64,000 bases of DNA, taken from contig NZ_JASAMB010000028.1 in the NCBI RefSeq assembly GCF_029948125.1, forward strand, positions 1 to 64,000. Direction: 5' to 3'. This DNA is from Catellatospora sp. KI3. Lineage in GTDB: Bacteria > Actinomycetota > Actinomycetes > Mycobacteriales > Micromonosporaceae. The notes beneath the pieces were generated by a model. The model was not told the DNA's origin. It did no database searches and saw only the letters and a program-made list of their open reading frames with translations. A program made the position numbers and the translations under genes. Positions within the stretch are counted from its first letter, which is position 1. Each line of letters starts with the position of its first letter. Shown here in pieces: positions 21,770 through 57,549 of the stretch.

Positions 21770-21834
21770 ATTGACGCTGGCCTATCTAGAGGATGAATTT
21801 CGGGAATCCGTCTTCTAGATAGGCCAGCGTCGAT
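21770..21834. repeat. R1-family intergenic hairpin, copy 1
   Basis: Arms 21770-21790 and 21814-21834 pair along 21 bases (one G-U) and contain GGCCTATCTAGA/TCTAGATAGGCC. The 23-base loop includes TTTCGGG. It lies between convergent genes. Related copies are at 52029-52094, 57438-57502 and, diverged, 28120-28200. Confidence 0.9.
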
Positions 21835-52028: not shown

Positions 52029-52094
52029 ATTGACGCTGGCCTATCTGGAAGACGGTTTCGGACAAAACTGTCTTCTAGATAGGCTAGCGTCGAT
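52029..52094. repeat. R1-family intergenic hairpin, copy 2
   Basis: Arms carrying GACGCTGGCCTATCT and AGATAGGCTAGCGTC (few mismatches) extend inward through GGAAGAC/GTCTTCT. The loop has GTTTCGGACAAAAC. It lies between the convergent RDD and MFS genes and, like copy 1, is followed by TTTAAGGCGG. Confidence 0.9.
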
Positions 52095-54835: not shown

Positions 54836-55768
54836 TCAGGCGGCGGTACGGGCTGCCAGGGCCTGACGGTACAGGCGTCCGGCCCGGTACGACGAGCGAA
54901 CGAGCGGACCGCTCATCACACCGGCGAAACCGATCTCGGTCGCCTCCGTGCTCAGCTCGACGAACTCCTCCGGCTTCACCCAGCGCTCCACGGGGTGGTG
55001 GCGCGGGGTCGGGCGCAGGTACTGCGTGATGGTGATCAGCTCGCACCCGGCCGCGTGCAGGTCGCGCAGCGCCTGCGAGACCTCTTCGCGCTCCTCGCCC
55101 AGGCCCAGGATCAGGTTCGACTTGGTGACCAGCCCGGCCTCGCGGGCCTTGGTGATCACTTCGAGGGAGCGCTCGTAGCGGAACGCGGGCCGGATGCGCT
55201 TGAAGATGCGCGGCACCGTCTCCACGTTGTGCGCCAGGACCTCGGGCGCGGCCGCGAACACCTCGGCCAGCTGCTCGGGGACGGCGTTGAAGTCGGGGAT
55301 CAGCAGCTCGACACCGCAGCCGGGGACCAGGTTGTGGATCTGGCGGACGGTCTCGGCGTACAGCCAGGCGCCGCCGTCGGGCAGGTCGTCGCGGGCCACA
55401 CCGGTCACGGTGGCGTACTTCAGGCCCATCGTCGCCACCGACTCGCCGACCCGGCGGGGTTCGTCGGCGTCGAACTCGGCGGGCTTGCCGGTGTCGATCT
55501 GGCAGAAGTCACAGCGGCGGGTGCACTGGTCACCGCCGATGAGGAAGGTCGCCTCGCGGTCTTCCCAGCACTCGTAGATGTTGGGGCAGCCCGCCTCCTG
55601 GCAGACCGTGTGCAGGCCCTCCCGCTTCACCAGCGAGTGCAGCTGGGTGAACTCCGGGCCCATCTTCGCTTTGACCTTGATCCACTCGGGCTTGCGCTCG
55701 ATCGGCGTCTCGGCATTTCGGGCCTCCACGCGCAGCAGGCGCCGGCCCTCGGGAGCGACGATGGTCAT
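54836..55768 (-). CDS. lipA: Lipoyl synthase
   Basis: 310 residues, radical SAM enzyme inserting two sulfurs into protein-bound octanoyl groups. The auxiliary [4Fe-4S] cluster cysteines are C56, C61 and C67 ([12 protein letters not shown]). The SAM cluster motif is C82-x3-C86-x2-C89 (CTRRCDFC). The C-terminal RSSYRAG contains the conserved Ser ligand of the auxiliary cluster. It depends on the octanoyl groups transferred by LipB (57550-58206); lipB is separated from lipA here by an aspS-type gene. Targets are E2 subunits working with AceE and the fused E1, and GcvH. Confidence 0.98.
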
Positions 55769-55884
55769 GCGGCCAGCGTACGCGCCGACGACCCCTTGAT
55801 CTCAGCGCGGGTAACGGACGTCTCAGCGCCCGCCACGCCACGAAAACGGTTGCCCGCGGCGGCGCGGGCCGCTAGCGTCGTCGC

Positions 55885-56075
55885 TCAACAGCAGGAACGG
55901 GGCGAATCACCGGAGTGACGCCCGGGTCGAGCCGCCGCGCTCGTATGGCCCCGACCCGTGCTGCATGAGGCCCCGGCCGGACGATCCGGTCGCGGGTGAA
56001 GGTGTGGTGGCACCGCGGGTTCCCAAACCGCCCACACCCCTTTGGGGATGGCGTTGCGGAAGAACCCGGAGGTAA
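55885..56075 (+). promoter_or_regulatory. Translational T-box riboswitch
   Basis: The T-box core GGTGGCACCGCG (56006-56017) is present. Its TGGC would pair with a tRNA 3' GCCA, that is a tRNA with G73, as in tRNA-Asp and tRNA-Asn. Upstream, CAGCA/TGCTG (55889-55893 with 55959-55963) and CGGGGC/GCCCCG (55898-55903 with 55948-55953) form a Stem I-like helix around a loop with GAC (55953-55955). An AAC lies on the other side (55896-55898). CGGGTTC (56016-56022) is the exact complement of GAACCCG (56062-56068) abutting the GGAGG ribosome site, so the 3' switch probably sequesters the ribosome site. No T-run is present. Confidence 0.75.
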
Positions 56076-56081
56076 ACACCC

Positions 56082-57350
56082 ATGCAACGCATCCTTTCCG
56101 CTGAGCTGCCCGCGCACGTGGGCGCACGGATCACCATCGCCGGCTGGATCCATCGCCGCCGGCTGCTCAAATCGGTCGCCTTCCTGATCGTGCGCGACGC
56201 CGCGGGACTGAGCCAGGCCGTCATCACCGAACCCGGGCCGCGCGAGCTGGTCGAGGCGCTGCCCGAGGAGACCGTCGTCGCCGTCGAGGGCACGGTGACC
56301 GCCAACCCGGCGGCTCCGGGCGGGGTCGAGCTCACCGAGGTGGGGGTACGGCTGCTCGGCGAGCCCGCCGAGGCGCCGCCGTTCGACCTGTACCGGCCGG
56401 TGCTGGGCGCGGGCCTGCCCACGCAGCTCGACGCCGCCCCGATCTCGCTGCGGCACCCGTCGCGCTCGCGGGGCCTGCGCGTGGCCGCCGCCGCGGCCGG
56501 GGGCTTCCGGCAGACCCTGGACGGGCTCGGCTTCACCGAGATCCACACGCCGAAGATCACGGCGACCGCGACCGAGTCCGGCGCCAACGTCTTCGCGATC
56601 GACTACTTCGGCCGCCCGGCCTACCTGGCCCAGTCGCCGCAGTTCTACAAGCAGATGATGGTCGGCGTCTTCGAGCGCGTGTACGAGGTCGGGCCGGTGT
56701 TCCGGGCCGAACCCAGCGACACCACCCGGCACCTGGCCCAGTACACCTCACTCGACGCGGAGCTGGGGTTCATCGGCGACCACCGCGACGTGATGGCGGT
56801 GCTGCGCGAGGTGGTCGCCGGGATGGTCGGCCGCGTCGGCGAGCTGGGCTACGAGTACGCGCTGCCCGAGGTACCGGCCGAGATTCCGGCGCTGCACTTC
56901 AGCGAGGCGCTGAAGATCGCGGGCGCGCCGGAGGACGAGCCGGACCTGGCGCCCGCGCACGAGCGGGCGATCGGGGAGTGGGCGGTGCGCGAGCACGGCA
57001 GCGACTTCGTCTTCGTCACCGGGTACCCGATGGCCAAGCGGCCGTTCTACACCCACCCCGAGCCCGGGGACGCGCGCTGGTCCAACAGCTTCGACCTGCT
57101 GTTCCGGGGGCTGGAGATGGTGACCGGCGGGCAGCGGCTGCACCGCTACAGCGACTACGCGGCGGCGCTGGCGGCGCACGGGGAGACGACGGCGGCCTAC
57201 GAGTCGTACCTGCAGGCGTTCCGGCACGGGATGCCCCCGCACGGCGGCTTCGCCATCGGGCTGGAGCGCTTCACGGCCCGCCTGACCGGCGCGGCGAACA
57301 TCCGCGAGGTCAGCGCCTTCCCTCGCGACCTCAACCGCGTCACCCCCTGA
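56082..57350 (+). CDS. aspS: Archaeal-type aspartyl-tRNA synthetase, predicted non-discriminating
   Basis: 422 residues, much shorter than the bacterial AspRS (about 590) because it lacks the GAD insertion; closest in layout to archaeal AspRS2. N-terminal OB fold (1-100), then the class II catalytic core with FTEIHTPKITATATESGANVF, LAQSPQFYKQMM, FRAEPSDTTRHLAQYTSLDAE and PPHGGFAIGLERFTARL (motif 3). Anticodon-domain residues H24 (GWIH) and P79 (NPAAPGG) align with positions 26 and 85 of the Thermococcus enzyme, where Trp/Lys give specificity for tRNA-Asp and His/Pro relax it. It should charge tRNA-Asn as well. GGAGG is 9 bases before the ATG and lies in the T-box sequestrator. Confidence 0.92.
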   Translation: MQRILSAELPAHVGARITIAGWIHRRRLLKSVAFLIVRDAAGLSQAVITEPGPRELVEALPEETVVAVEGTVTANPAAPGGVELTEVGVRLLGEPAEAPPFDLYRPVLGAGLPTQLDAAPISLRHPSRSRGLRVAAAAAGGFRQTLDGLGFTEIHTPKITATATESGANVFAIDYFGRPAYLAQSPQFYKQMMVGVFERVYEVGPVFRAEPSDTTRHLAQYTSLDAELGFIGDHRDVMAVLREVVAGMVGRVGELGYEYALPEVPAEIPALHFSEALKIAGAPEDEPDLAPAHERAIGEWAVREHGSDFVFVTGYPMAKRPFYTHPEPGDARWSNSFDLLFRGLEMVTGGQRLHRYSDYAAALAAHGETTAAYESYLQAFRHGMPPHGGFAIGLERFTARLTGAANIREVSAFPRDLNRVTP

Positions 57351-57437
57351 GCGGTCCCCGCAGCGCGGCACCGAGCCGTGTCCCGCGCCGCGCGGCGCTT
57401 CCATGTGTCGCGCGGCGCTGGTCGCTGCCCACCTAGC

Positions 57438-57502
57438 ATCGACGGTGGCCTATCTAGAGGACGGATTTCGGAGAATCGTGCTCTAGATAGGCCACCGTCG
57501 AT
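57438..57502. repeat. R1-family intergenic hairpin, copy 3
   Basis: Perfect 22-base arms (57438-57459, 57481-57502) carrying GGTGGCCTATCTAGAG/CTCTAGATAGGCCACC and a 21-base loop with GGATTTCGGAGAATC. It lies between the convergent AspRS and lipB genes. Compared with copy 1 the outer C-G pair changes on both arms (CGCTG versus CGGTG), a compensatory difference. Confidence 0.92.
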
Positions 57503-57549
57503 TCAAGAACGGGGTGGGGCGGGCGAGAGGGGACTCTCGGGCTGCTGGG

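Follow-up and report, generated by a model that had tools for sequence, protein, structure and literature searches.

In the T-box structures known so far, the tRNA is held by a second grip, on its elbow or through stem II, besides the contacts with its anticodon and 3′ end. T-boxes of aspS/Asn genes in Clostridia were reportedly described by Saad et al. in 2012 and 2013. In Actinobacteria, ileS T-boxes acting on translation were reported in 2005, according to the accessible text of that paper (PMC1262725). The accessible part of a 2008 survey counts T-boxes in 12 of 19 actinobacterial genomes, names ileS and gives Symbiobacterium as an outlier (PMC2494555). For the T-box database TBDB, Actinobacteria were scanned with a class II model, and 94% of the Asp specifiers are GAC, with genes unnamed in the portion available (PMC7778990). 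No description of an aspS T-box in Actinobacteria was found in the literature searched; subscription papers lay outside that search, and TBDB entries are possible.

We analyzed a candidate of this kind in a 64,000-nucleotide (nt) stretch of the Catellatospora sp. KI3 genome, here called the window. The leader (55769-56081) is flanked by lipA (54836-55768, minus strand; the label was assigned from its protein sequence) and by a 422-codon gene:
56082-57350, plus strand: aspS2, archaeal-type AspRS of 422 aa (NCBIfam NF003483; nearest solved structure 1n9w/3kfu).
The gene scored 513.4 bits against NF003483 (aspartate--tRNA(Asn) ligase; cut-off 353), which bears out the archaeal-type AspRS gene of a preliminary description of this DNA. 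Its product looks like an archaeal-type, non-discriminating AspRS: its nearest relative with a solved structure is the Thermus thermophilus AspRS2, named non-discriminating, and it has His and Pro where W26 and K85 of the T. kodakaraensis enzyme align, two residues that we take to be determinants separating the discriminating from the non-discriminating class. Besides this one archaeal-type AspRS, the AspRS-type matches in the 8.2-Mb genome (96 contigs) included a bacterial-type AspRS of 616 residues and a LysX-like protein of 1102 residues. No T-box core was present in the flanks fetched for the bacterial-type AspRS (L002, L004). A profile search of the genome yielded no AsnRS above its cut-off, and GatB is present. 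By pattern search there is one tRNA-Asp (GUC) and one tRNA-Asn (GUU); on reading, both end in G73, and tRNA-Asn has a U1-A72 pair. Extra AspRS genes occur mainly in Actinomycetales without AsnRS, as far as the available text of PMC4206432 states. A palindromic element around CCTATCTAGAGGAC has three copies in the window (57433-57507, 52040-52083 and 21781-21823) and six half matches versus 0.17 expected; the copy 3′ of aspS2 has 31-base arms that are 90% complementary.

The T-box core named in the preliminary description, GGTGGCACCGCG, lies at 56006-56017, and a T-box sequence with the UGGN bulge (here UGGC, 56008-56011) between helices A1 and A2 was found at 56001-56038:
56001-56007, plus strand: antisequestrator helix A1, 5′ strand GGTGTGG, pairing with 56032-56038 (100% paired cells across 51 sequences; both sides changed at two pairs).
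56008-56014, plus strand: T-box bulge UGGCACC, read from the sequence, with UGGC (56008-56011) opposite the tRNA NCCA.
56015-56031, plus strand: antisequestrator helix A2 (GCGG/CCGC) and its loop, with covariation in 51 sequences.
56032-56038, plus strand: antisequestrator helix A1, 3′ strand CCACACC, with covariation in 51 sequences.
The window alone is insufficient to distinguish this core from chance: 0.35 copies of the 12-base sequence are expected in the window, at least one copy occurred in 29 of 100 shuffles, and the leader fold energies were ordinary (z of -0.99 and 0.18). We regard the core as more than chance because it is conserved at the same place before orthologues. The comparison comprised 150 leaders: the window, 80 loci of named genomes (the best 80 of 572 relatives) and 69 leaders of the same family (29 best matches and 40 picked by hand; the gene is held by 200 of 250 sampled family genomes). 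Eight row pairs among the 150 are identical. The pattern TGGNACCRCG, sought up to 400 bases 5′ of each archaeal-type AspRS orthologue, was present in 124 of the 150 leaders (116 of 142 distinct), a strong result for the conservation in relatives that had been set as a test. The 7-base A1 helix had at least six matches in 104 of these 124 leaders, and the core stood alone in 20; the bulge N was C in 85 and T in 39. The 26 leaders without a core within 400 bases include all seven Nonomuraea (L009, L010, L014, L019, L023, L041, L058), one Streptomyces (L045), Caldiserica, two MAGs of Acidimicrobiia/Dormibacterota type and a few more. Some leaders hold two elements in tandem before aspS2: two cores at -317 and -172 in L060, and two T-box or T-box-like elements in L068, L081 and L083.

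Covariation was tested for A1, A2 and a helix at the start codon in 51 distinct sequences of the family. Together the three helices had 98.1% paired cells. Two-sided changes were seen in 21 cells (15 in A1, 5 in A2 and 1 in the start helix) versus 4.7 in shuffled alignments, and the covariation score of 0.108 (0.074 shuffled) was reached by none of 500 shuffles. Further pair types were not in excess over shuffles (346 of 500). Within A2, pair 61-73 of alignment A1 is A-U in 46 sequences and G-C in 5. Members of the window's genus differ little, and therefore little covariation is visible among them. Pairing of the A2 loop with bases 3′ of A1, seen by eye in several leaders, was left out of the count because its register shifts.

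The RF00230 covariance search proposed as a check in the preliminary description did not match the window copy, either at the gathering cut-off or at E ≤ 10 in the Rfam scans, an outcome that this description had listed as refuting its proposal. Orthologous leaders did match. At E ≤ 0.05, 15 of 20 same-family leaders were recovered; their scores of 31.5 to 74 bits stay under the gathering score of 93. L131, L137, L140, L143 and L149 were unmatched. Among eight further leaders, L098 and L107 matched; L006 and L034 (both of the window's genus), L015, L024, L017 and L025 did not. In total, 17 of the 28 actinobacterial leaders tested gave a match, each short of the gathering score, with a best E of 6e-15. 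At or above the gathering score were 5 of 20 loci, all in Chloroflexi/Firmicutes: L033 (a Chloroflexi MAG, 100.4 bits), L068, L073, L081 and L083. A second L068 match, 3′ of the start, is distinct from its aspS2 leader. On this comparative evidence (conservation, A1/A2 covariation and RF00230-matching orthologous leaders), we judge the leader upstream of aspS2 to be a T-box, as had been proposed.

Its 5′ part appears reduced. No long stem I was recognized in the window's genus. None of the 11 distinct genus leaders has AGTA, half of the stem II S-turn motif, in the 220 bases upstream of the start, and no stem II with S-turn and IIA/B pseudoknot was recognized there by eye. The following elements can be drawn:
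55889-55903, plus strand: closing helix P1, 5′ strand (CAGC... CGGGGC), pairing with 55948-55963.
55909-55927, plus strand: specifier hairpin with arms CCGG (55910-55913) and CCGG (55922-55925) and loop AGUGACGC; all 11 distinct genus leaders have the surrounding 23-base element.
55917-55919, plus strand: specifier codon GAC (Asp), placed by homology; a non-circular anchor reads GAC in 61 leaders.
55928-55943, plus strand: second junction hairpin P2 (CGAG/CUCG), with an A-U/G-C change at one pair.
55948-55963, plus strand: closing helix P1, 3′ strand (GCCCCG ... GCUG), pairing with 55889-55903.
55970-55997, plus strand: Stem III, a hairpin in the minimum-energy fold, varying in length and sequence among genus members.
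P1 encloses the specifier hairpin, which is followed by P2; the specifier would then occupy an apical loop next to the long closing helix. In nine aligned genus sequences the P1 duplex energy was -16.6 to -23.7 kcal/mol, with one pair changing from G-C to G-U; in this alignment L034 is without the outer strand, and L087 and L092 are misaligned or mismatched at one to three pairs. The variable P2 pair is A-U in the window, L087 and L088 and G-C in the remaining six rows. We also considered a K-turn in the basal stem (GGC/GCC) but gave it up, since it clashes with P2, which has this two-sided change. The Stem I-like helix of the preliminary description can be drawn, but the specifier sites proposed with it fall at or beside its closing helix.

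The 23-base specifier element, ATCACCGGAGTGACGCCCGGGTC, is kept in all 11 distinct genus leaders within neighboring sequence that varies. Short-type leaders share (T)GAC(A/G) in the hairpin loop. In 18 of them the hairpin flanks fitted each other better than shuffled partners (0 of 10,000, with shuffles that ignore kinship); 3 of 10,000 permutations reached the fit when Nocardioides was left out, and for Nocardioides alone it was not significant (1085 of 10,000). When the window sequence was folded in isolation, GAC was mostly paired in a competing hairpin (unpaired 0.04-0.12; -13.2 kcal/mol versus -10.6 with GAC open). A specifier triplet matching the amino acid of the gene is present by homology, with the competing hairpin as a caveat.

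Four anatomies, classed by eye, coexist in the family: long stem I with stem II (e.g., L098), long stem I with no evident stem II (e.g., L018), short stem I with stem II (L120, L130, L140) and neither evident (L131, L149). A quick tree was made from 53 AspRS2 proteins, and their leaders were labeled long or short by eye, the default being long. On this tree the short label requires eight changes, at least three of them forced by well-supported branches. L149 falls in a starred group of six, five of which are long; from GAC onward its leader is like that of its long-stem-I neighbor L043, and its upstream part is now GGGAGUGACGCCC. The window T-box looks like a pared-down version of a switch kept fuller in related bacteria. 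We tentatively put forward, at somewhat less than even confidence, that the window's genus has a minimal natural T-box, in which a GAC loop on one arm of a three-way junction and the UGGC bulge would read tRNA-Asp without a long stem I or an S-turn, and that reduction occurred more than once before the same gene, the plainest case being L149, nested among long-stem-I leaders. If true, a T-box working without the elbow or the stem II grip would show the minimum required.

Alternatively, the leader may be a degenerate relic: tRNA sensing would have disappeared together with long stem I and stem II, and the core and expression platform would persist as a fixed repressor or leader. The unrecognizable S-turn, the missing RF00230 match and the buried specifier are in line with such decay, but the constancy of the specifier element and of the UGG[CT]ACC bulge in all 11 distinct genus leaders amid variable sequence, and the recurrence of shortening in separate branches, argue against it, and we consider a relic unlikely.

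The preliminary description had paired CGGGTTC with GAACCCG beside GGAGG and had seen no T-run terminator. The exact complementarity was confirmed, and no T-run terminator follows the window leader. The elements concerned are:
56016-56022, plus strand: sequestrator 5′ strand CGGGTTC, overlapping A2, an exact complement of 56062-56068 and paired with it in the unconstrained minimum fold.
56052-56058, plus strand: GCGTTGC, the complement of GCAACGC (56084-56090, at the start codon), with 97.0% of cells paired in 51 sequences.
56062-56072, plus strand: sequestrator 3′ strand GAACCCG (56062-56068), running into the Shine-Dalgarno GGAGG (56068-56072).
Each of the 11 distinct genus leaders has CGGGTTC, and 8 have an exact GAACCCG as well (L034, L090 and L092 differ). 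This exact pair characterizes the window's genus. In Actinoplanes- and Nocardioides-like relatives, the Shine-Dalgarno GGAGGU pairs with ACCUCC instead. Across other family members, ACCUCC/GGAGGU was paired in 94.1% of cells, with no covariation in this helix of the relatives.

Folding of the platform alone gave -38.2 kcal/mol unconstrained and -36.3 with A1 forced for the window, a cost of 1.9 kcal/mol. The ribosome site went from 0.53 to 0.64 unpaired and the start codon from 0.65 to 0.62, a small difference. In L006, L008 and L034, forcing A1 cost 5.4, 6.1 and 3.6 kcal/mol, and the start codon went from 0.03-0.06 to 0.51-0.64 unpaired. For Nocardioides (L015, L024, L030) the costs were 7.6, 10.3 and 5.3, and the ribosome site went from 0.00-0.02 to 0.21-0.26. 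The unconstrained minimum was already the A1 form in 8 of 25 sequences (L011, L018, L046, L107, L126, L130, L131, L148). The start-codon helix GCGUUGC/GCAACGC is nearly invariant (one cell with a two-sided change) and kept in most family leaders examined; in L140 both sides are changed, but only in a register shifted by one. As the switch it was set aside because it can coexist with A1/A2: although it would bind the start codon, the antisequestrator could still form.

The sequestrator and the lack of a terminator suggest translational control, which is likely on this anatomy. Control of transcription would have a precedent in L033, the Chloroflexi MAG, where a G+C-rich hairpin and then TTTT lie 3′ of the T-box in a terminator-like form; with no T-run in the window leader and Shine-Dalgarno complementarity in relatives, we give it only a small chance.

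The specifier could be read without presupposing its identity. As a neutral anchor we used the 3′ strand of stem I plus two purines before the triplet, the triplet itself being free. Among 101 core-bearing leaders of the Actinobacteria/Chloroflexi group, the anchor was readable in 61 (57 distinct), and all 61 gave GAC; in the other 40 it was unreadable (32 without an anchor, 8 failing the purine rule). The window leader has no anchor. Four Sulfobacillus/Bacillota leaders gave GAC (three) and GAT (one). Of 18 Clostridia-group leaders, seven, all from Lachnospiraceae, gave AAC (Asn; L069, L070, L071, L077, L080, L084, L085), nine had no anchor, and two were out of register and show GAC in the RF00230 alignment. 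RF00230 alignments likewise have GAC in the columns that we take to be the specifier position of the model (L033, L068, L073, L081, L083, L134, L124, L126, L118, L098, L107). By homology, we read the specifier as GAC (Asp), with 55917-55919 as its best position, so that the question of Asp or Asn is answered as Asp. The preliminary description had offered GAC at 55953-55955 or AAC at 55896-55898; we rejected both because they are not conserved within the genus. It had also held that the C facing the discriminator fits G73, which agrees with both tRNAs of this genome; because both have G73, the UGGC bulge cannot separate tRNA-Asp from tRNA-Asn. Reading of tRNA-Asn through AAC at 55896-55898, as in Lachnospiraceae, would match the gene name aspartate--tRNA(Asn) ligase, the AAC of 7 of 18 Clostridia-group orthologues and a bulge blind to the difference, but this AAC adjoins the closing helix and is GAC, TGAC or GGAC in other genus members, and every readable actinobacterial or Chloroflexi leader has GAC, so that we regard it as highly improbable.

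Our preferred reading, held with good confidence, is a tRNA-Asp T-box that acts as an antisequestrator switch on translation of a second, inducible AspRS. Judged from sequence, the leader very probably senses uncharged tRNA-Asp and controls translation. Uncharged tRNA-Asp would pair through its GUC anticodon with GAC in the loop (55917-55919) and through its GCCA end with the UGGC bulge, stabilizing antisequestrator A1/A2 (56001-56038). A1/A2 would break CGGGUUC/GAACCCG, free the ribosome site and turn on translation of the second, probably non-discriminating AspRS. With charged tRNA-Asp, the leader would remain sequestered. On the simplest reading, aspS2 would be an inducible back-up for the bacterial-type AspRS, whose gene lies elsewhere. 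Comparable back-ups are the T-box-controlled second TyrRS and ThrRS of Bacillus subtilis. Many actinomycetes may have such an inducible second AspRS, a point of relevance to their response to aspartate shortage or AspRS inhibitors.

Among known systems, canonical RF00230 T-boxes are matched over the full model length by same-gene leaders in the family; the window copy, in contrast, is unmatched and lacks the long distal stem I. Glycine T-boxes share the absence of stem II, but in the accessible text of PMC7583486 they keep the elbow-gripping long stem I, which the window leader does not. With the translational ileS T-boxes of Actinobacteria (class II of TBDB; structures from Mycobacterium tuberculosis and Nocardia farcinica), as described in the available parts of PMC1262725, PMC7583486 and PMC10651847, the leader shares the short specifier stem, the UGGN bulge with A1/A2, a ribosome site predicted to be sequestered and the lack of a terminator. 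It differs in having GAC instead of AUC, in the gene and in having no recognizable S-turn stem II, whereas tRNA binding by the ileS forms depends on stem II and the IIA/B pseudoknot (accessible text of PMC7583486). The one RF00230 match obtained in the genome (38.2 bits, below cut-off; L086 1501-1673, G000:C22:76186-76358) lies 5′ of a putative ileS in a minus-strand frame. This putative ileS T-box has AUC followed by A in a comparable short hairpin, the triplet being at 16-18 counted from its G1, as in the N. farcinica numbering (PMC7583486, available text). The aspS/Asn T-boxes of Clostridia share the position before an extra AspRS, but the Lachnospiraceae leaders read here have AAC, unlike the GAC of Actinobacteria. 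T-boxes of one enzyme family would thus read Asp in Actinobacteria and Asn in Lachnospiraceae, a change of tRNA.
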